Below the pieces are notes generated by a model that was given only the letters and a program-made list of their open reading frames with translations, was not told where the DNA came from and did not search any database. This document shows, in pieces, positions 14,826 through 27,020 of a DNA stretch of 64,000 nucleotides. The DNA lies in assembly GCA_021777335.1 (NCBI GenBank), contig JAJYDT010000004.1:1-64000 (forward strand), written 5' to 3'. Every line of letters starts with the position of its first letter. Position 1 is the stretch's first letter. The translations under genes and the position numbers were made by a program. Origin of the DNA: Pseudomonadota bacterium. GTDB lineage: Bacteria; Pseudomonadota; Gammaproteobacteria; Acidiferrobacterales; Acidiferrobacteraceae.

Positions 14826-16076
14826 ATGGCGGAAACAGCGGTACTGGCGGAGGGCGAGCCAATTGGATTCGGCCCGGGAGGACTGGTCGTCCCCGACTGT
14901 CCGGTGATCCCGTTCATCGAGGGTGACGGTACGGGTGTCGATGTGACACCGGTCATGCGGCGTGTCGTCGATGCGGCGGTCACGCGTGCCTATGGTGGGT
15001 CGCGCCGTATCTCATGGATGGAGGTCTATGCAGGCGACAAGGCTGCCGCGCGCTACGGTGAGAACCGGCGGCTGCCATCTGAAACGCTGGCAGCGATCCG
15101 CAACTACCGGGTGGCGATCAAGGGGCCCCTCACGACGCCCGTCGGCGGCGGTATGCGCTCACTCAACGTGGCGCTGCGCCAGCAGCTCGATTTGTATGTC
15201 TGTCTGCGCCCGGTGCGCTATTTCCCTGGGGTACCGAGCCCTGTGCGTGATCCACAGAAGATCGACATGGTCATCTTTCGCGAGAATTCCGAGGATATCT
15301 ATGCCGGCATCGAGTGGGCCGCAGATTCGCTCGAAGCCAAGAAGGTGATTGCGTTTCTTCAGCACAAAATGGGCGTGACGAGCATCCGTTTTCCCGAGAG
15401 CTCGGGTATCGGCATCAAACCGGTGTCGCGGGAAGGCAGTGAACGCCTGATTCGCCGGGCTATCGAATACGCGCTTCAGCACGACCGCCCCTCAGTGACC
15501 CTTGTACACAAGGGAAACATCATGAAATACACGGAAGGCGCGTTCAAGACATGGGGTTACGCGCTTGCGGAGCGCGAATTCGGGGCGCGCCGGATGGACG
15601 CCTCATCGGCCTATGAAATTACAGACCCGAGGTCGGGCCGGCGCATGGTGCTGAAAGACGTGATCGCAGATGCGTTTCTCCAGCAGATCCTTCTGCGGCC
15701 TGAGGAGTTCAGTGTGATCGCGACGCTCAATCTCAACGGCGACTATATCTCCGATGCGCTTGCAGCGCAGGTCGGTGGCATCGGCATTGCGCCGGGCGCG
15801 AATTTGTCGGATGAAACAGCCCTGTTCGAGGCCACGCACGGCACCGCCCCAAAGTACGCGGGCAAGGACCAGGTCAATCCCGGTTCGATCATATTGTCCG
15901 CGGAGATGATGTTACGCCATATCGGCTGGTCCGAGGCCGCTGATCTCGTCCTCCGGGGCATGGAGGGCGCCATTGCATCCCGGCATGTCACCTATGACCT
16001 GCATCGCCTCATGCCGGACGCGACGCTCGTCAGCTGTTCCGGTTTTGGCGAGCAGGTCATTCGCTCCATGGGGTGA
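14826..16076 (+). CDS. icd: Isocitrate dehydrogenase, NADP-dependent
   Basis: TCA cycle enzyme converting isocitrate to 2-oxoglutarate, 416 residues as in E. coli. Substrate-binding RSLNVALRQ (with the serine that is phosphorylated in enterics) and the metal/isocitrate residues [10 protein letters not shown] are present. NADP preference is supported by the pair K-Y in [15 protein letters not shown] and by Tyr and Arg in VTYDLHRLM, which are the E. coli NADP determinants. SD GAGGGG lies six bases before ATG 14826. Only three bases separate its stop from the response regulator start, so icd and the two-component system may share a transcript. Confidence 0.95.
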
Positions 16077-16079
16077 GAC

Positions 16080-16751
16080 GTGAAGTTGCTCGTGGTCGAA
16101 GACGAGACGAAGACATCGGCCTATCTCCGCAAGGGGCTCTCCGAACATGGATTCGTGGTAGATGTGGCCGCTGATGGCCGACGCGGATTTGACCTCGCAG
16201 TCAGCGGGGCCTATGACGCCATCATCCTGGACATCATGCTTCCGGGGCTGGACGGGTGGGCGATACTGCGTGACCTCAGGGCGCAGGGCAAGCAGACGCC
16301 GGTGATCGTGCTGACGGCGCGCGACGCGGTTCAGGACCGCGTGGCGGGGCTGAGCCTCGGGGCGGATGACTATCTGGTCAAGCCGTTTGCGTTCTCGGAA
16401 CTCCTGGCTCGGCTGCATTCGATCCTGCGCCGCGGCCCGGCGCGCCAACCCCAGAGACTGTCGGTCGGCGACCTCGAGGTGGATCTGCTTCAGCACCGGG
16501 CAACGCGGGCGGGCCGACGCCTCGATCTCACGGCGAAGGAGTTTCTGCTGCTTCTGACGCTCATGCGTCGCGAGGGGGAGGTCCTGTCGCGTACCCTGAT
16601 CGCGGAACAGGTGTGGGACATGAATTTCGACAGCGATACCAATGTCGTGGACGTGGCGGTGCGACGTCTGCGGCGGAAGGTCGATGATCCCTTTCCTGAC
16701 AAGCTCATCCATACGGTCCGGGGCATCGGTTATGTCCTCAGGCCGCGGTAG
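16080..16751 (+). CDS. OmpR/CopR-type response regulator
   Basis: A 223-residue two-component response regulator. The receiver domain (1-115) has the acidic pair EDE, the phosphoacceptor Asp in [13 protein letters not shown], Thr in VLTARDA and Lys in DDYLVKPF. The C-terminal winged helix (130-222) is OmpR-type ([48 protein letters not shown]). The sequence resembles CusR/CopR/IrlR regulators of metal efflux. GTG 16080 is the start, three bases after icd. It overlaps the sensor kinase by 20 bases and is upstream of the RND pump genes it probably controls (inference from order). Confidence 0.92.
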
Positions 16752-18147
16752 ATCATGGTCGATAGCCTGGCGCCTGACGTCGCTGTATGTGCTGCTGTCG
16801 GCGATTCTGCTCGTTGTCGCCGCGCTCTTTCTTTACTGGCTGCTCCAGAGCAACTTGAGACACCAGGACAACAGCACCGTGGCCGAGGAGATCCACGTCC
16901 TGCGCGTGATCCTGCGCCAGCGCCCCGATAACCCGACCATCCTGCGTCAGGAGGTCCGTTGGGAGGGGGGCTCGAGCGAGGCACCCCCGATATATGAACG
17001 GGTACTGAACCGCGCGGGCATAGTCCTGCTCCAGACGCAGGGGATGAAGCGGATCGCGCCGGTATCGGTCTTTCCGTCGCCTATCGGTGTGCGCCAGCGA
17101 CCGCCGCACACTGCCGAGCGGCGCACCCTCGCCAATGGGCAGATCTATCGCCTGATGTCCGCGTGGGCGGCGCTGGGCTCAGGTACGCGGAGAGAGCGGC
17201 TGTTGCAGGTGGCGCTTGATGTTACCCATAGCGAAGGGGTCATCAGCATGTACCGCAACGCACTTGCGCTGGTCGTTCTGGTCGGTGTTCTGGCCTCCGT
17301 CGGCGCAAGTCTGTTTGTCGTGCGAAAGGGCATGACGCCGCTTGCCGACATCACCAATGCCGCGCGCAAGATCAGTGTGACCCAGTTGCACGAGCGGTTA
17401 CGGCCATATCGCTTTCCGGTCGAGCTGCACAGCCTGGCCGAGGCGTTCAACGAGATGCTGGACCGGCTCGAAGAATCCTTTACAAGACTCAGCCAGTTTT
17501 CAGCCGATCTCGCGCATGAACTCCGTACGCCGATCAATAACCTCATGGGAGAGGGCGAGGTCGCGCTTGCGCGCCCCCGAACGCCCGCGGAGTATCACCA
17601 GGTCCTTGAGTCATCGCTTGAAGAGTACAGCCGGCTCTCGCGGATGATTGATAGTCTGCTGTTCCTCGCGCGCGCCGAGAACCAGGCGGCCCCTATCGAT
17701 CTTGCTGTGCTCGATCTGCGGCAGGAAACGGAGGCGGTGCGGGAGTTCCATGAGGCGGTTGCCGAAGAGCAGCAGGTGCGGATCGTGTGTGAGGGGGCGG
17801 GGCAGGTGCGTGCAGATCCGATCCTGCTGCGCCGAGCGCTCAGTAATCTGCTGTCGAATGCACTTCGTTACACCCCGCCCGGCGGTTGCATCGAGATGGT
17901 ATCCTCGGCCTCCACGGCCGGTTCTGACGTGCTGGTACGGGACAGCGGATGCGGCATCGCTGCAGAACATCTGCCCCGATTGTTTGACCGGTTCTACCGC
18001 GTTGACAAGACCCGGTCGGAACGCAGCGAGGGCGCTGGTCTCGGCCTTTCAATCGTCCGCTCAATCATGGCGCTCCACGGAGGCGCCGTGACCATTGAAA
18101 GCACACCCGGGACCGGCACGGTGGTAAGGCTCCATTTCCCGGCATGA
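16732..18147 (+). CDS. Sensor histidine kinase, CusS-like
   Basis: Membrane histidine kinase, 471 residues. Two transmembrane helices (about 13-33 and 175-198) flank a periplasmic sensor of about 140 residues, followed by a HAMP domain, the H-box [19 protein letters not shown] and the ATP-binding N ([16 protein letters not shown]), G1 (VRDSGCGI) and G2 ([13 protein letters not shown]) boxes. The general form matches heavy-metal sensor kinases. No metal-binding cluster of His/Cys/Met stands out in the sensor, so its ligand is open. ATG 16732 lies inside the end of the regulator gene and gives a normal short cytoplasmic N-terminus. Confidence 0.92.
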
Positions 18148-18325
18148 GTGCAGATGACGAAATGGTCATCTTGCGGTCAGGTATTTGTCTCTATCGATGT
18201 CTTATCCTCTTTCCATGAGCCGCATATTGCCCGCCTATTTCGCGCATCGCCTTGATTCCGGAACGCGCGCCTCAGGACCGCCCGGTCACGTTTGCCCCGG
18301 CGTGCAGGTACGTGTCACTGGCTAG

Positions 18326-19747
18326 ATGCCCCGATCGGCAGTTATTGGCATGAGCACTCAAGGACGTGGGCGGGGTTGCCGTCTTCGGCGCCTGCTGATG
18401 CCGTTCGCGGTGCTGGCGGCGCTGAATGGCTGTGCGCAGTATCATCCGCGCCCTCTCTCTCCAAAGACCGCCTCGGCTGCGCTGAGACGTCCGTCGATCC
18501 TGTCGCTCGAGGTCGCCGCCGCCCGCATCAGGCACCCGATACTGCGTCCGGTCACGTTCAATGGGGGTCGTCTGACGCCTGACCAGGTCGCGGTCCTCGC
18601 GGTGGTGGCCAATCCGGACCTGCGTGCGGTGCGCGACCAGACGCAGATCGCGCATGCCCAGCTGATCCAGGCGGGACTGTTGCCGAACCCGGTTTTTTCC
18701 TATGGGGTTAGCCTCCCTATGGGCAATACCGCCGGCCTTACGCGCGGCTACAGCTTCGGTCTCGGGCTCGACCTTCGCGCGCTCCTGCTGCGCAACGCCC
18801 GGAAGGCGGAGGCACGGGCGAACGTTCACTCGGTGGCACTCAACGTCGCCTGGCTGGAGTGGCAGGTCGCGGAAGGCGCGAAGTTGCACGCCTTGCGTCT
18901 GATCAGCTTGCGTGGGGCGGTCCGGACCGCTGTGGCCATCGAGAACAATGCAGAACATGAGGCGCAGGTCATGCGCCTGGCCCTGGCGGCGCACGAGGTT
19001 ACCCTGATTGAAGAGGCGGCGGCGGCCGGTGCCGCGCAAAATGCGCGGATGGCAGTCATAAGGCTTGAGGCGGAACAGGCGCGGGAACGGCTTGCGCTGG
19101 ATCAGGCAATCGGGCTCGCACCCACGGTACGGCTGCCGCTTGAGCGCCGGCTGCGCACGGCACGCTGGCGCACTCTGCCGAAACTTTCGGGAGTGCTTGC
19201 GCACCTGCAGCAGCGCCGTCTCGATCTTGTGGCGTTGCGGTATGGATATGAGAGTGCGGAGGAACAACTCCGGCAACAGGTGCTGGCCCAGTTTCCGCGG
19301 ATCTCGCTCTCGCTTGCCCGGGCGCGTGATACGACCGACGTGAACAGCATCGATTCCGGGGTCAGGATCGGGTTGCCGATCTTCAATCACAATCAGGGAC
19401 GTATCGCCATCGCCTCGGCGACCCGCAGGCAGCTGTTCGACGAATACGAGGCGCGCCTGTTCGCAGCACGCGCCCAGGTTGCGCAGATCCTGAATGACAT
19501 GAAGTGGATCAAGCGGCGTATTCGGGACGCAGAGGCGGAGGTCCGCTCCTCGGCACGGCTCGAACGGGCAGCAGAACAGGCGTTTGCGCACAGCGATGTG
19601 AATACTGTCGTTGATTACCGCATCCGTGAGCAGCTGGCATCGCAACGGCTTTCCCTGGCGGGGCTTAGGCGGCGACTGGATGATCTCGGGGTGGCGCTTG
19701 AGGTCGCCTCGGGCCGGTATTTCGAAGGGGTGCGGAGGCACCGATGA
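18326..19747 (+). CDS. Outer-membrane efflux lipoprotein, TolC/CzcC family
   Basis: Outer-membrane channel of the RND pump. A lipoprotein signal ends at LAALNGC (lipobox). Two outer-membrane-efflux-protein repeats with long alpha helices follow (for example LTPDQVAVLAVVANPDLRAVRDQTQIAHAQLIQAGLLPNP). Length 473 is usual. The start may be ATG 18326 or ATG 18350; the later one gives a more typical signal peptide, but neither has a strong ribosome binding site. Its stop overlaps the adaptor start (ATGA at 19744). A 178-base gap separates it from the kinase gene and probably holds the pump promoter, though no clear hexamers are seen. Confidence 0.88.
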   Translation: MPRSAVIGMSTQGRGRGCRLRRLLMPFAVLAALNGCAQYHPRPLSPKTASAALRRPSILSLEVAAARIRHPILRPVTFNGGRLTPDQVAVLAVVANPDLRAVRDQTQIAHAQLIQAGLLPNPVFSYGVSLPMGNTAGLTRGYSFGLGLDLRALLLRNARKAEARANVHSVALNVAWLEWQVAEGAKLHALRLISLRGAVRTAVAIENNAEHEAQVMRLALAAHEVTLIEEAAAAGAAQNARMAVIRLEAEQARERLALDQAIGLAPTVRLPLERRLRTARWRTLPKLSGVLAHLQQRRLDLVALRYGYESAEEQLRQQVLAQFPRISLSLARARDTTDVNSIDSGVRIGLPIFNHNQGRIAIASATRRQLFDEYEARLFAARAQVAQILNDMKWIKRRIRDAEAEVRSSARLERAAEQAFAHSDVNTVVDYRIREQLASQRLSLAGLRRRLDDLGVALEVASGRYFEGVRRHR

Positions 19748-20802
19748 AACGCAGGGTTATGGTCATCGTGGCAATTGCGGCGGTCGCGGGCGCCGGGATA
19801 GCACTCTACCAGTGGCCGGTTCCGCCCCAGGCATCGATACAGCCCATCGATCCGGTACACGTGGTGCCGCTTGCGGTGCGCACGATCTCGAAACGGGTGA
19901 CGGCCTATGGGACAGTCACGGGCGCCCCGGGCGATCAATGGAACGTCTCCAAGCCGTTCGGGACCGAGATCAGCAATGTCTATGTGCGCCTTGGACAGCG
20001 GGTGGAAAAAGGTGCGCCTCTGCTCAAGGTTGCGCCCGCGCCCTCGGCAGTACTGACCCTTGCGCGTGCAAAAAGCGCGCTCGTGCTCGCCCGGCAGGGG
20101 TTGCGGCAGGTCCGCCACCGCTACGCCTTGAGGCTTGCCACCAATGCCGGCCTCCTGGCCGCGCGGCAGCGCTATGAGGATGCGTTGATTCACTGGCGTT
20201 CCTTGAAGGCGTGGGGCGTCGGCGGGCCCATTGTTGTGCGTGCACCCGAGGCGGGTCTTGTCGCTGCGCTTCCCATCGCGTCTCCGGGGGCGTTCGTCCC
20301 GAGGGGCCAGACATTGGTGACCCTGACCGCCATGGGACGGTTGCAGGCGACCTTTGGTGTTGAGCCTGATGTCGCCACGGTACTGACCGTCGGCCGCCCG
20401 GTTTCGGTCATGTCGCTCAATAGGCGCTCGCACAAGGTGAAGGGCCGCATCCAGGCGGTCTCCGGTTCCATCGATCCGAAGACGCGGCTTGTCGATGTGT
20501 TCGTTGCCTTGCCGCCGGCTTCGGGATTCCTCGTTGGCCAGTTTGTGAGGGGTCGCGTGAGCGCATACAGAAGCCGGGGCTTCGTCGTGCCACACTCCGC
20601 AGTCCTGCCACAAGACGGGCGCCGCGTGCTTTATACCGTGAGTGCCGGTCACGCCGTTGCTCATGATGTGCGCATCGAACTGCGTGATCACCGGTTTTAC
20701 GAGATCTCGGGCCCCGGCCTCAGAGCCGGCGAGCCCGTCGTGGTGCTCGGGAATTACGAGCTGCGTCCGGGCATGGCCGTCAGGCAGGTGCCGGTGCGAT
20801 GA
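19744..20802 (+). CDS. RND efflux periplasmic adaptor (membrane fusion protein)
   Basis: A 352-residue HlyD/AcrA-type adaptor linking the inner-membrane pump to the outer-membrane channel. It has an N-terminal membrane anchor (VMVIVAIAAVAGAGIALY), split lipoyl/barrel-sandwich halves (SKPFGTEISNVYVRLGQRVEKGAPLL and IVVRAPEAGLVAALPIASPGAFVPRGQTLVTL), a short helical hairpin between them and a beta-barrel (ATFGVEPDVATVLTVGRPVSV). No metal-binding N-terminal Met/His motif is seen. Translationally coupled on both sides by four-base overlaps. Confidence 0.9.
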   Translation: MKRRVMVIVAIAAVAGAGIALYQWPVPPQASIQPIDPVHVVPLAVRTISKRVTAYGTVTGAPGDQWNVSKPFGTEISNVYVRLGQRVEKGAPLLKVAPAPSAVLTLARAKSALVLARQGLRQVRHRYALRLATNAGLLAARQRYEDALIHWRSLKAWGVGGPIVVRAPEAGLVAALPIASPGAFVPRGQTLVTLTAMGRLQATFGVEPDVATVLTVGRPVSVMSLNRRSHKVKGRIQAVSGSIDPKTRLVDVFVALPPASGFLVGQFVRGRVSAYRSRGFVVPHSAVLPQDGRRVLYTVSAGHAVAHDVRIELRDHRFYEISGPGLRAGEPVVVLGNYELRPGMAVRQVPVR

Positions 20803-23800
20803 ATCTCACCGCCTGGGCGCAGACGCACCGGCGCTCGATCCTTTTTCTGCTGGCGGCGCTCGCGATCGCGGGAGCGGCCAGCAGCTTCCTTCTGCCCGTG
20901 TCGTTGTTTCCGCATGTGAGCTTCCCGAGGGTCGAGGTATTCCTGAATGCGGGGGAGCGCCCCGTCAGCCGGATGGCGGTGCAGGTAACCTACCCGGTGG
21001 AGGCCGTGGTGCGATCGATCCCCGGGGTCGTGAGCGTGCGCTCCACGACTGCCCGGGGCGCCGCCGAGGTTTACGTCAACTTTCACTGGGGCCAGAACAT
21101 GATCCGGGGCCTGCTTGAGGTCGAAGCTGCGATCAGCCAGATTCGGGCCCAATTGCCACGGCAGACCACGTTCATGGCGCGGCGCATGGATCCCACCGTA
21201 TTCCCGGTGCTTGCCTACGCCATGACCTCAAAGACGGTCTCGCTTGTGACGATGCGCACCATCGCGAAGTACGAGCTGCGACCGTTGATTTCGACCATTG
21301 ACGGGGTGGCGCGTGTCGGTGTCCAGGGCGGGCAGAAGGAGGAATATCGGGTCACGATCGAGCCCGAGCGTCTCAGTGCTTATGGGCTCACGCTCGGCGA
21401 TGTCTCGCGCGCCCTTGGGCAGGCCAACGTGCTGCGCGCGGTGGGGCGTCTCGAGGATCATTACAAGCTTTATCTCATTATCGCCGACACTCAGCTGCAC
21501 AACATCCATGACCTGAGACGGCTCGTCGTAGCGACCCGCGGCGGCGGTGTGGTCCGGCTGAAGAACATTGCGCGGATCCAGCGGTCTGTGGTGCCGGAGT
21601 GGTGGAACGTGGTCGCCGACGGACACCGGGCGGTAATCTTTCAGGTGTACCAGCAGCCCGGGAGCAACACGGTTGCGATCACCAAGGCCATCAAACGCAA
21701 GCTCGCGGCGTTCAAGAGCCATCTGCCCCCGGGCGTGCATATTGTGAACTGGTACGATCAGAGCCAGCTCATCCTCGCCTCGGCGGCGAGCGTGCGCGAC
21801 GCGGTCCTGATCGGCGTGGTTCTGGCGGCACTGATCCTGTTTGTCTTCCTCAGGAATCTGCGCATCACGCTGATCGCCATCATCTCCGTTCCCAGCGTGC
21901 TGGCCATTGCGGTGCTTCTGCTGTACGTGTTCGGGATGAGTTTCAACATCATGACGCTCGGGGGCATGGCGGCGGCCGTCGGCCTGATCATCGACGACAC
22001 CATCGTGATGGTGGAGCACATCATGCGACGCCTGCGCGAGCGTAATTCCGCGTTTCCGCATCACGAGCGCGTCATGATGGCTGCCCGGCAGTTTACGCGG
22101 CCGCTGGTGGGTTCCTCGGCATCAACCGTCGTCATTTTCACGCCGCTTGCGTTCCTCTCCGGCGTGACCGGGGCATTTTTCAAGGCGCTCTCGGTGACCA
22201 TGGCCGGCAGCCTCGTCATCTCATTCCTGGTCGCCTGGCTTGCGGTTCCGCTGCTCGCTGACCATCTTTTGACCGAGCAGGATGCGGAACATGAACAGGA
22301 AGGCCCGTTTCTGCGCAAGCTTCACGGGGTCTATGAGCGCGTCATGCGTTTCAGTCTGCCAAAGGCCTGGATCATCCCGGCGGTGATGCTGCCACTGATC
22401 GTGCTCGGGGGGCTCGCATACCGGGCGACCGGGTCAGGTTTTCTTCCCTCGATGGACGAAGGGGGGTTCATCCTGGACTATGTGGCGGCGCCCGGGACCT
22501 CGCTCACCGAGACCGAACGGTTGCTGGACCGGGTTGAAGGTATCCTCAGGCGCACGCCGTCGGTGCAGACCTATTCGCTGCGTACCGGACTGCAGCTCGG
22601 CGGAGGGATTACGCATGCGAATGAAGGCGATTTCTTCGTGCGCCTGAAGCCGTTCCCCAGGCCTCCGATCTGGCAGGTGATGGAGAACGTACGCCTGCGG
22701 GTCGAACGCCAGGTGCCCGGCCTTGAGATCCAGATGGATCAGATGATGCAGGACCTGATCGGGGATCTCACCGCCGTCCCGCAACCGATCGAGATCAAAC
22801 TCTTTTCGGACAATGGCACGCTCCTGAAGAGACTTGGCCCCAGGGTTGCCGCTGCCATCAGCAAGGTCCGCGGGGTCGTAGACGTGCGCAATGGCATTGT
22901 GTTTGCGGGCGACGCAATCGAGATCAAGGTAAATCGCGCCAAGGCGGCAATGCAAGGGGTCGACGCCGGCTGGATCAGCCGGCGTCTCAATGAGTACCTG
23001 TCGGGCACTGTGGCGACCCGGATCCAGCGGGGTCCCCGCATGATCGGCGTGCGGGTATGGATACCAGGACGGGACCACAAGGAGATCCAGGACGTGCGCG
23101 ACCTGGAGCTGCGCGCGCCGGACGGCCACTTTTTTCCGTTGCGGCAGGTGGCACGGCTCAAGATCGTGACCGGACAACCGGAAATCCTGCGGGACAACCT
23201 GAAGCGGATGATCGCAGTCACCGGACGCATCAACGGTCGCGACCTCGGTTTTGTGATTCGCGATGTCAAGAAGGCACTATCCCGGCCCGGCCTTATACCA
23301 CCAGGCGTATATTATTCGCTGGGTGGGCTGTATCGGCAGCAGCAGATCGCGTTCCGGGGGCTTGCCGAAGTGTTCGTCGCCGCAGTCGGACTGGTGTTTC
23401 TGCTGCTGCTGTTCCTGTACGAGCGGTTCCTCGTCGCGCTTGCCATGCTGACAACAACATTGCTGGCGTTTTCGGCAGTGTTTATAGGGCTCTGGATCAC
23501 CGGGACCGAGCTCAATATCTCGTCGATGATGGGTATGACCATGGTGGTGGGAATCGTCACTGAAGTGTCGATTTTTTACTATTCTGAATTTCAGGAACTG
23601 CCCGATACGCTGCCGGTAACCGAACGTCTGGTCCTTGCCGGCAAGAATCGCATGAGACCGATTGCGATGACGACATTCGCCGCTATACTGGCATTGCTGC
23701 CGCTTGCCCTCGGCATCGGGCAGGGGTCGGGGATGCAGCAGCCGCTCGCCGTGGCCATCATCGCCGGGCTCGCAGCCCAGCTGCCCCTTGTGCTGGTGGT

Positions 23801-23846
23801 TTTACCGCTCATGCTGAATGCGCTTGCGCGGCGCGCTGGCCGGTGA
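20799..23846 (+). CDS. RND efflux pump permease with altered proton-relay residue
   Basis: A 1015-residue inner-membrane RND transporter with 12 helices and two large periplasmic loops. Helix 4 carries the proton-relay aspartate pair in GLIIDDTIVMVEH (about residues 394-406). In helix 10, where AcrB has Lys940 in GLSAKNAIL, this protein reads GIVTEVSIFYYSEF (about residue 920), so the lysine seems to be glutamate. The aspartate pair argues against the classic CusA/CzcA (HME) pattern, so the substrate is uncertain despite CusRS-like regulators upstream. Last gene of the three-gene pump operon; a bidirectional hairpin follows. Confidence 0.9.
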   Translation: MNLTAWAQTHRRSILFLLAALAIAGAASSFLLPVSLFPHVSFPRVEVFLNAGERPVSRMAVQVTYPVEAVVRSIPGVVSVRSTTARGAAEVYVNFHWGQNMIRGLLEVEAAISQIRAQLPRQTTFMARRMDPTVFPVLAYAMTSKTVSLVTMRTIAKYELRPLISTIDGVARVGVQGGQKEEYRVTIEPERLSAYGLTLGDVSRALGQANVLRAVGRLEDHYKLYLIIADTQLHNIHDLRRLVVATRGGGVVRLKNIARIQRSVVPEWWNVVADGHRAVIFQVYQQPGSNTVAITKAIKRKLAAFKSHLPPGVHIVNWYDQSQLILASAASVRDAVLIGVVLAALILFVFLRNLRITLIAIISVPSVLAIAVLLLYVFGMSFNIMTLGGMAAAVGLIIDDTIVMVEHIMRRLRERNSAFPHHERVMMAARQFTRPLVGSSASTVVIFTPLAFLSGVTGAFFKALSVTMAGSLVISFLVAWLAVPLLADHLLTEQDAEHEQEGPFLRKLHGVYERVMRFSLPKAWIIPAVMLPLIVLGGLAYRATGSGFLPSMDEGGFILDYVAAPGTSLTETERLLDRVEGILRRTPSVQTYSLRTGLQLGGGITHANEGDFFVRLKPFPRPPIWQVMENVRLRVERQVPGLEIQMDQMMQDLIGDLTAVPQPIEIKLFSDNGTLLKRLGPRVAAAISKVRGVVDVRNGIVFAGDAIEIKVNRAKAAMQGVDAGWISRRLNEYLSGTVATRIQRGPRMIGVRVWIPGRDHKEIQDVRDLELRAPDGHFFPLRQVARLKIVTGQPEILRDNLKRMIAVTGRINGRDLGFVIRDVKKALSRPGLIPPGVYYSLGGLYRQQQIAFRGLAEVFVAAVGLVFLLLLFLYERFLVALAMLTTTLLAFSAVFIGLWITGTELNISSMMGMTMVVGIVTEVSIFYYSEFQELPDTLPVTERLVLAGKNRMRPIAMTTFAAILALLPLALGIGQGSGMQQPLAVAIIAGLAAQLPLVLVVLPLMLNALARRAGR

Positions 23847-24758: not shown

Positions 24759-27020
24759 ATGTTGTCCCAGGAACTGGAGTTCTCCCTGAATCTTGCATTC
24801 CAAGAGGCGCGGGAAAAGCGACACGAATTCATCACCGTCGAGCACCTGTTGATGGCGTTGCTGGACAACCCCTCGGCGGCGCGTGTCCTGCGCGCCTGTG
24901 GCGGGAATATCGAGGAGCTCCGCCGGAATCTTGCCGGCTTCCTGCTCGAGAATGTTCCGACCCTTGCGCCGGGCAGTCCGGTCGAAACCCAGCCGACACT
25001 CAGTTTCCAGCGGGTGATCCAGCGCGCTGTACTCCACGTGCAGGGCGTCGGCAAGAAGGAGGTTACCGGCGCCAACGTGCTGGTGGCGATGTTCAGCGAA
25101 AAGGACTCGCACGCTGTTTATTTCCTCCAGAAGGAGAACGTCAGCCGGTTTGACGTCGTCAATTATGTTGCGCACGGTATTTCCAAGATCCCTGGCGAGA
25201 CGCCCGAAACCTCGGGTGGCGAGGAGCAGGAGGAGGCTCAGGCGAGCACCGAACGCAGCCCTCTCGACCTGTTCACGATCAATCTGAACGAGATGGCGCG
25301 CCTTGGGCGGATCGATCCTCTGATCGGGCGCGACAGCGAGTTGCGGCGCGCGATCCAGATACTGTGCCGCCGCCGCAAGAACAATCCCCTATTCGTCGGC
25401 GAGGCGGGTGTCGGCAAGACCGCCATTGCGGAGGGGCTTGCGAAGAAGATTGTCGACGGCGAGGTACCCGAGGTCCTGGCGAAAAGCACGCTGTATTCGC
25501 TGGATATGGGTACGCTGCTTGCGGGGACCAAATATCGGGGCGATTTTGAAAAACGGCTGAAGGCGGTGCTGCACCAGCTGAAGAAGCAGGAGCATGCCAT
25601 GCTGTTTATCGATGAGATACATACCATCATCGGTGCTGGCGCCGCCTCAGGCGGCGCCATGGATGCCTCCAATCTTCTGAAGCCCGCGCTGGCCTCGGGA
25701 GAGCTGAAGTGCATGGGTTCAACGACCTACCAGGAGTATCGCGGGATCTTCGAGAAAGACCGCGCGCTCGCCCGGCGTTTCCAGAAGATCGACGTGGTCG
25801 AGCCGTCGCTTGACGACGCTGTACAGATCCTGCGCGGGCTCAAGGGGCGGTTCGAGAAGCATCATGGCGTCAAGTACACGCAACAGGCGCTGCGGACCGC
25901 GGTAGAACTGTCCAGCCGCTACATCAATGACCGTCATCTCCCTGACAAGGCGATCGACGTGATCGATGAGGCCGGGGCGAGCGTGCATCTCATGGCACCC
26001 AACCGCCGCAAGAAGGTGATCGGTGTCGGGGACATCGAGGAGATCGTGGCGCGCATGGCGCGGATCCCGGCGAAGAGCGTGTCGCATTCGGACCGCGAGG
26101 CACTGCGTACGCTCGAACGCGACCTGAAGCTCGTCGTATTTGGCCAGGACAGTGCGATCGACACGCTCGCGGCTTCCATCAAGATGGCCCGCTCAGGGCT
26201 CCGCGAGACGGAAAAGCCGATTGGCGCGTACCTGTTCTCGGGTCCGACCGGTGTCGGCAAGACTGAGGTCACGCGCCAGCTCGCGCATGTGCTTGGACTG
26301 CAACTGATCCGTTTTGACATGTCCGAATACATGGAGCGGCACACGGTGTCCCGTCTCATCGGCGCGCCCCCCGGCTACGTAGGCTTCGATCAGGGTGGTC
26401 TGCTGACGGACCAGGTTTCGAAGCATCCGCACGCGGTGCTGCTGCTGGACGAGATCGAGAAGGCGCATCCGGATGTGTTCAACCTGCTGTTACAGGTGAT
26501 GGACCACGGGACGCTGACCGATAACAACGGGCGTTGCGCCGACTTTCGCAATGTCATCATGGTCATGACGACCAATGCCGGCGCGGAGCAGGCAAACCGG
26601 GCGTCAATTGGATTCACGCAGCAGGACAACAGCGCCGACGATCTCAGTGTCATTCAGAAAATGTTCGCGCCGGAATTCCGCAACCGGCTCGACGCGATCG
26701 TACGATTCAACGCGCTTGATCCCGAGACGGTAGGGCACGTGGTGGACAAGTTCGTCCTTGAGCTCGAAGCCAAGCTCGAGGAGAAAGGGGTGGTCATCGA
26801 GGTGGACGCCTCGGCGCGTGCCTGGCTCGCGAAAAACGGGTATGAGCCGGCGATGGGCGCGAGACCGATGGCACGATTGATGCAGGAGAAAATTAAGAAG
26901 CCTCTTGCAAATGAGCTGTTATTTGGGCGGCTTGCCCATGGAGGGTTCGTGCGCGTTACGGAGGGCGCGGACGAGCTCAAATTGGAATTTTCGGAATCTA
27001 CTTGTGTCCAGGATGCATGA
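24759..27020 (+). CDS. clpA: ATP-dependent Clp protease ATP-binding subunit ClpA
   Basis: Double AAA+ unfoldase that feeds ClpP, 753 residues (E. coli 758). It has the N-terminal Clp repeat domain (1-145), Walker A1 GEAGVGKTA (about 214) with Walker B LFIDEIHT, and Walker A2 GPTGVGKTE (about 494) with Walker [14 protein letters not shown]. The ClpP-docking loop IGF is seen in [11 protein letters not shown]. No ClpB-type coiled middle domain is present. SD GGAGG seven to eight bases before ATG 24759. An unknown 122-residue gene starts three bases after its stop. Confidence 0.97.

Follow-up and report, generated by a model that had tools for sequence, protein, structure and literature searches.

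The stretch of DNA analysed here (the window) comprises 64,000 nucleotides, positions 1 to 64,000 of the forward strand of contig JAJYDT010000004.1 in assembly GCA_021777335.1, from a Pseudomonadota bacterium of the Acidiferrobacteraceae. It carries a gene for an RND permease (Table 1) whose proton relay is unusual in composition: the clade of this permease retains both aspartates of helix 4 and has a glutamate at the helix-10 position of AcrB Lys940, with neither a lysine at that position nor one at the helix-11 position of CusA K984. Sequence comparisons establish these columns, their conservation and an origin of the Glu separate from that in CusA, and they show that the membrane core has no other conserved basic residue. 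It seems probable, though far from secure, that the gene product belongs to a proton-driven tripartite pump exporting metal cations, in a distinct RND clade with a relay of two Asp and one Glu and no lysine.

The Asp pair D399-D400 lies in a GLIIDD motif and E922 in the motif GIVTEVSIFYY. Both phmmer against CusA from the PDB and two separate MAFFT alignments pair E922 with AcrB K940 and CusA E939; since these agree, misalignment was rejected. An earlier note on this DNA had read the open reading frame as an RND pump with an intact Asp pair and a Glu in place of the lysine, and all of this was borne out. The PF00873 match reaches 680.4 bits against a gathering score of 28, and this score, together with the helices of an AlphaFold2 model, agrees with an RND architecture of 12 helices and two porter loops. 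In an alignment of 99 rows, 72 rows with an identity of 42% or more cover the column and every one of them has Glu; three truncated rows (L086, L088 and L091) fall short of it. The scan of genome contigs used six search peptides, one of which, MMGMTMVV, lies immediately N-terminal of E922. Because this biases the scan toward the context of the Glu, an independent sample of 398 Pseudomonadota genomes was taken as the fair test. Seventeen of them besides the source genome contained a relative at E <= 1e-130, and Glu was present in all 16 relatives that cover the column, while one (L120) is truncated. With this sample added, the Glu is found in 87/87 covering rows, and the plasmid homologues L161, L162 and L165 also have it. 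A Glu unique to the window sequence, a possibility that the earlier note had raised, can thus be rejected.

The other relay residues are equally constant. D399, D400 and E406 are invariant in 80/80 covering rows and R951 in 87/87, and residue 958 is Thr or Ser across the clade. Two further columns are changed: at AcrB P906, 46 of 48 clade rows have Leu where 88 of 94 other permeases have Pro, and at AcrB N941 the clade has mainly Val and 68 of the 94 others have Asn. A second clade-specific acid, E930, was observed near the cytoplasmic end of helix 10 in 84 of 87 rows, and the periplasmic half of the same helix has Met at 911, 913 and 915 in 72/72 rows and at 910 in 71/72. The nearest relatives are labelled Acidiferrobacter or unclassified Proteobacteria, from metagenome-assembled genomes (MAGs); others come from MAGs of Planctomycetota, Verrucomicrobia, Nitrospirota and Myxococcales, and from plasmids of Burkholderia, Paraburkholderia and Sphingomonadales. 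Judging by bin names, our impression is that many relatives from the contig scan are acid-mine MAGs. Such a permease is present in 15 of the 18 genomes of the source family (with a truncated permease in three of them), and ten places in the source genome (2.57 Mb, 164 contigs) match the permease, one of them short.

The relay columns were compared in 149 permeases non-redundant at 80%, of which 148 have the helix-10 column; this set is skewed toward relatives of the window permease and toward Pseudomonadota. A Lys or Arg at helix 10 was found in 36 of the 148, and 34 of those keep the second Asp. Among the 61 permeases outside the DD-Glu group that have no basic residue there, 56 have no second Asp, and the five that do are of type DD-Ala (three) or DD-Asn (two). 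The DD-Glu group, which is defined by having both residues, shows the second Asp in 51/51 rows (48 DD-E-I and 3 DD-E-K, the last letter giving the residue at the CusA K984 column), and every permease of its tree clade that reaches the columns has it as well. Because these rows are related, the 51 count as one historical departure and not as 51. A Lys at the K984 column occurs in 21 of the 149 permeases, all 21 with a helix-10 Glu, and in two separate lineages, the CusA-like one and a Bacteroidota branch. The median net charge of the 12 helix cores is -3 in class DD-E-I, -3 in the three DD-E-K rows and 0 to -2 in the other classes. In the alignments, the cores of the clade's membrane helices contain no conserved Lys or Arg, and none was found at the helix-10 position itself, where the earlier note had allowed that a proper alignment might place one; R951 (AcrB R971) is still present.

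Models based on AcrB treat the helix-10 lysine as a switch that controls the pKa of the Asp pair. Metal export by CusA is reported to depend on each of D405, E939 and K984, where E939 hydrogen-bonds D405 and has a computed pKa near 7, and K984 is a 'proton sweeper' (PMC8092243); CzrA and NczA are described with Leu and Val at the E939 and K984 columns (PMC3637150). An acid at the helix-10 site is therefore not new in itself, and the Glu alone, known from CusA E939 in the same column, does not make a new relay. What is new, judging from the alignments, is the Asp pair plus Glu without CusA's K984, an uncompensated combination. The earlier note had proposed that the acid would alter the relay and did not mention that CusA has a Glu at this site; in this its reading was incomplete. 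The DD+Glu relay of this clade was not found described in the literature searched, a coverage from which subscription journals are mostly absent. Close homologues of CusA keep K984 in 30/30 readable rows, CusA included (29 of 30 fetched loci were readable; L183, which came out in a wrong reading frame, was left out), as does the pMOL30 protein L137. Four CusA-like proteins, L066, L050b, L218 and L250, keep D and E and have Leu, Val, Leu and Ile, respectively, at the K984 column; the first two are more distant and were picked by choice, and the last two come from the 149-permease set. The 'proton sweeper' lysine is thus not universal within CusA's own clade.

Trees of 81, 49 and 24 rows were calculated, in each case after removal of the alignment columns of positions 922 and 955. 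All three give one superclade, in which sisters bearing the helix-10 Lys branch first (L062, L107 and L108), followed by the DD-E-K branch and finally by the DD-E-I clade. CusA and CzcA lie outside this superclade, with SH-aLRT values of 95-100 on the deciding branches. The long-branched L063 stood at the edge of the superclade in the 81-row tree and was not included in the other two. A constraint that joins all Glu rows cost 293 log-likelihood units (p-AU 1.9e-51 in the approximately unbiased (AU) test with LG+G4 on 24 rows, run with no mixture model and with the constrained group chosen by the Glu itself). Since the clade lies outside CusA and CzcA and a single clade of Glu rows is rejected by the AU test, these trees indicate that the helix-10 Glu arose at least twice.

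The closest outgroup, the Lys-bearing sisters (L062 from the source genome itself, L107 from a Methylocystis plasmid and L108 from a Granulicella plasmid), is 37-38% identical to the window permease and reads GIVAKNG at helix 10. The DD-E-K branch, from Bacteroidota plasmids (L160 of Hymenobacter, L163 of Fibrella and L164 of Adhaeribacter), is sister to the window clade and has its Asp pair and Glu; unlike that clade, it has a Lys at the K984 column (RPKLMT) and keeps N941. It is tempting to read these branches as a stepwise order from K to E+K to E alone; the trees do not separate gain from loss. According to PMC5719797, the basic residue of helix 10 is not absolutely essential, and where it is removed, an acid such as D408 is likely to be lost as well. 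We put forward only tentatively, as a possibility somewhat short of an even chance, that the clade breaks this expectation with three buried carboxylates (Asp-Asp-Glu) and no basic partner in the membrane core, and that the series K, E+K and E alone records a stepwise rebuilding. The paralogue L062 (G000:C65:7680-10688; 37% identical) is of type DN-K, with Asn for the second Asp, the reverse of the charge pattern of the window pump. On the three Bacteroidota plasmids the neighbours include crcB, DUF190, a chloride channel, PepSY and PAP2, and in Fibrella also a heavy-metal P-type ATPase.

If the permease is the proton-driven inner-membrane pump of an exporter made of an outer-membrane factor (OMF), a membrane fusion protein (MFP) and the RND protein, encoded directly behind a heavy-metal two-component pair, its relay would consist of D399 and D400 in helix 4, E922 in helix 10, and R951 and T958 in helix 11. 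By analogy with the E939-D405 contact in CusA, a protonatable E922 would take over from the lysine in hydrogen-bonding to the Asp pair. With no lysine present, full ionisation of D399, D400 and E922 together would carry a very high cost, and for this reason one and probably two of the three carboxyls would be protonated and hydrogen-bonded at rest. Protons may then move among the three carboxyls and leave on the R951 side, guided by T958 and R951. The substrate would be a periplasmic metal cation bound by oxygen ligands of D560, D611 and D656, plus E609 in the window protein, and more likely a divalent one than Cu(I) or Ag(I).

The proposed substrate site was examined at the columns of the CusA metal ligands M573, E625 and M672. 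The clade has Asp there in 44/48, 48/48 and 48/48 rows, respectively. CusA-like pumps have M, E/D and M, CzcA-like pumps a mixed column, D/E and E, and pumps of the Lys type a mixed column, mostly F/R and mostly G/S/T. The acidic columns of the clade thus resemble those of divalent-metal heavy-metal efflux (HME) pumps. Taken together with the heavy-metal regulators and the operon order, the acids at the CusA metal-site columns suggest a metal exporter.

When compared with known systems, the permease fell under every curated NCBIfam RND subfamily cut-off, and the 41 sequences of alignment A1 all gave the same model matches. TIGR00914 (HME, CusA/CzcA) gave 469.3 bits against a cut-off of 701.45, and TIGR00915 (hydrophobe/amphiphile efflux, HAE-1) 353.7 bits against 940.35. 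The window clade has in common with AcrB, MexB and MdtBC (HAE-1) the equivalents of the Asp pair, E414, R971 and T978 (D399, D400, R951 and T958 for D407-D408, R971 and T978), and differs by Glu for the basic residue Lys940, by the changed P906 and N941 and by the acidic periplasmic site. With CusA, the E. coli HME exporter of Cu(I)/Ag(I), to which the permease is 25% identical, it shares the helix-10 Glu column, the helix-11 Thr and an acid at the E625 column. CusA falls in a separate clade, however, and has Ala for the second Asp, the complete triad D405/E939/K984 and the Met triad M573/M623/M672, whereas the window protein has DD, Ile at K984 and D560/E609/D656, so that two columns of the Met triad hold Asp. 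With the divalent exporters CzcA and CnrA the clade has in common E554 and an acid at each of the columns E625 and M672; CzcA types have Leu in helix 10, and the helix-4 motif of HME1/2 (CzcA), given as DFG-x3-DGA-x3-VEN in PMC3637150, is absent from the clade, the permease reading VGLIIDDTIVMVEHI. In none of the three trees was the permease placed inside the clade of CusA and CzcA. Because it passes no curated RND subfamily cut-off, it is fair, by sequence criteria, to regard the clade as a separate RND subgroup.

Two published groups were compared with it. Burkholderia 'cluster C', described as of unknown function by Perrin et al. (2010, PMC2891726), also keeps the Asp pair without K940. Two permeases found on pBPHY01 were taken as the two cluster C members listed there; they have Ala at the column and are 26-27% identical to the window permease, and identity with cluster C was therefore rejected. 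Clade F of Bodilis et al. (2024, PMC10872679) is linked there to metals as a candidate HME group, lies near HME without being provably its sister, is enriched at acid/metal sites and holds Cus3ABC of M. xanthus (Cus3A being TC 2.A.6.3.7). The superclade fits this description and may belong to Clade F. The separate subgroup suggested by the earlier note is fair, and 'uncharacterised' needs the proviso that phylogenies have probably included it already. Its statement that HME signatures are absent is true of the helix-4 motif, the CusA methionines and TIGR00914, and fails for the acids D560, D611 and D656 (HME-like at the last two) and for the gene order.

Several results weigh against a metal exporter with this relay. 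Among the NCBIfam models, the multidrug model NF033617 scored highest (538.6 bits, cut-off 1250), ahead of TIGR00914. The best 50 rows of VIA-align are all drug pumps (Z 50.8 to 47.9), from which CusA is simply absent. The best PDB match of the adaptor is the drug adaptor MexJ, no CusB or ZneB match was found for it at E <= 0.001 in the PDB search, and the best PDB match of the OMF is 1yc9, named multidrug resistance protein. The CusS ligands H42, F43 and H176 have no exact match in the window kinase, where His residues are found only nearby, and its relatives vary at the aligned positions. Lys-bearing sisters and DD-E-K rows share most of the acidic periplasmic columns, so that the acidic site marks the superclade and does not depend on the Glu. 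A pump for drugs or organic cations (HAE- or NFE-like) with an altered relay, in which the heavy-metal type of the regulators would be merely a family label, accounts for several of these points; the retained HAE-type Asp pair fits it too, and the acids could bind organic cations. We nevertheless regard it as rather unlikely, because the acids occupy HME metal-site columns where Lys-type pumps have none, because OMF-MFP-RND is the order of HME operons, because the best Foldseek match of the permease in the PDB is CusA (3ne5, E 3.0e-64, TM 0.91), and because His/Asp-rich sensor loops occur in the kinases beside the planctomycete relatives L007, L012 and L019. The AlphaFold2 model, built from 41 window and locus sequences, has a mean pLDDT of 83.3 and a pTM of 0.76, and such a predicted fold does not decide the substrate class.

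The two remaining explanations concern the relay itself. An ordinary CusA-type (HME4) copper/silver pump that has lost K984 would share the D and E of the CusA triad, and CusA-like proteins without K984 do exist, as seen above. The placement outside CusA and CzcA and the AU test led us to reject simple membership; the permease also retains the second Asp, lacks the whole Met triad and has Met at the CusA K482 column, and this origin is scarcely credible. A permease that is no longer proton-coupled, being inactive or otherwise driven, would be in keeping with the statement in PMC5719797 that charge-changing relay mutations abolish transport by AcrB and MexB, and with the change in the clade of P906 and N941, both named there as proton-wire residues. 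It is very unlikely, since D399, D400, E922 and R951 are invariant in several phyla and residue 958 is T/S, a pattern that loss of function does not give. The proton-driven metal exporter with a DD+E relay is therefore still preferred.

The genes around the permease are arranged in the order icd, regulator, kinase, OMF, MFP, RND permease and clpA, all on the + strand (Table 1). The regulators had been called CusRS-like in the earlier note, in agreement with the heavy-metal two-component models TIGR01386 and TIGR01387, whose cut-offs the window pair passes. The listed start of the kinase reading frame overlaps the regulator gene by 110 nt, and the true start is probably inside it. OMF and MFP genes, and MFP and permease genes, overlap by 4 nt each, and the three are for this reason very likely co-translated. 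OMF-MFP-RND is also the order that Perrin et al. saw for HME operons (PMC2891726). The runner-up NCBIfam model of the adaptor is the CzcB-type TIGR00999, under its cut-off. By phmmer, an adaptor is present in 77 of 86 loci with a clade permease, typically directly 5' of the permease and behind the OMF; regulators are present in 30/86 and kinases in 26/86, many flanks ending early. The His/Asp-rich loops, which were also seen in the kinase beside L034, fall where the metal-binding loop of CusS aligns. The dyad between the kinase and OMF genes matches the search pattern with 2 mismatches in a scan allowing up to 3. Since the whole window gave 22 matches at <=3 mismatches against 13.6 expected, the dyad is at most a weak candidate for a regulator box. 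TGAC-N6-GTCA, resembling this dyad, occurs at 16367 within the regulator gene. On the proteobacterial plasmids L103, L105, L106 and L165, small PepSY or DUF4148 proteins recur beside the pump and the two-component pair.

Table 1. Genes, relay codons and other features of the permease locus, in window coordinates.
Feature	Position	Strand	Remarks
icd	14826-16076	+	first gene of the reported order
Response regulator, heavy-metal CusR/CzcR type	16080..16751	+	TIGR01387, 331.6 bits (cut-off 279.2)
Heavy-metal sensor histidine kinase, open reading frame	16642..18147	+	TIGR01386, 435 bits (cut-off 292.55)
Perfect 6-bp dyad GATGAC-N6-GTCATC	18153..18170		between kinase and OMF genes; from sequence
OMF, TolC family	18326..19747	+	PF02321, 45 bits
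Periplasmic adaptor (MFP)	19744..20802	+	TIGR01730, 123.3 bits (cut-off 94.9); PF16576
RND permease, 1015 aa	20799..23846	+	ATG start; PF00873
D399 and D400 codons	21993..21998	+	AcrB D407/D408; CusA D405/A406
D560 codon	22476..22478	+	column of CusA metal ligand M573
D611 codon	22629..22631	+	column of CusA metal ligand E625
D656 codon	22764..22766	+	column of CusA metal ligand M672
L888 codon	23460..23462	+	AcrB P906 column
E922 codon	23562..23564	+	AcrB K940, CusA E939 column
R951 codon	23649..23651	+	AcrB R971, retained
I955 codon	23661..23663	+	CusA K984 column
T958 codon	23670..23672	+	AcrB T978, CusA T987
clpA	24759-27020	+	downstream of permease

The DD+Glu branch is widespread and apparently unstudied. 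As a clade that keeps both Asp residues, lacks the Lys and has a third acid, it offers a natural means of learning if the basic residue is required at all and what else sets the pKa of the Asp pair, and together with the Lys-bearing sisters and the DD-E-K branch it forms a natural series for swap experiments. The clade is also relevant to the annotation of resistance genes, because the window protein falls below the cut-off of every curated RND subfamily in NCBIfam. If the proposed relay is correct, export would be coupled to a carboxyl cluster that takes up protons, and its H+ stoichiometry or pH optimum might be different; if the pump is a metal exporter, the clade would add a lineage of metal pumps outside that of CusA and CzcA.

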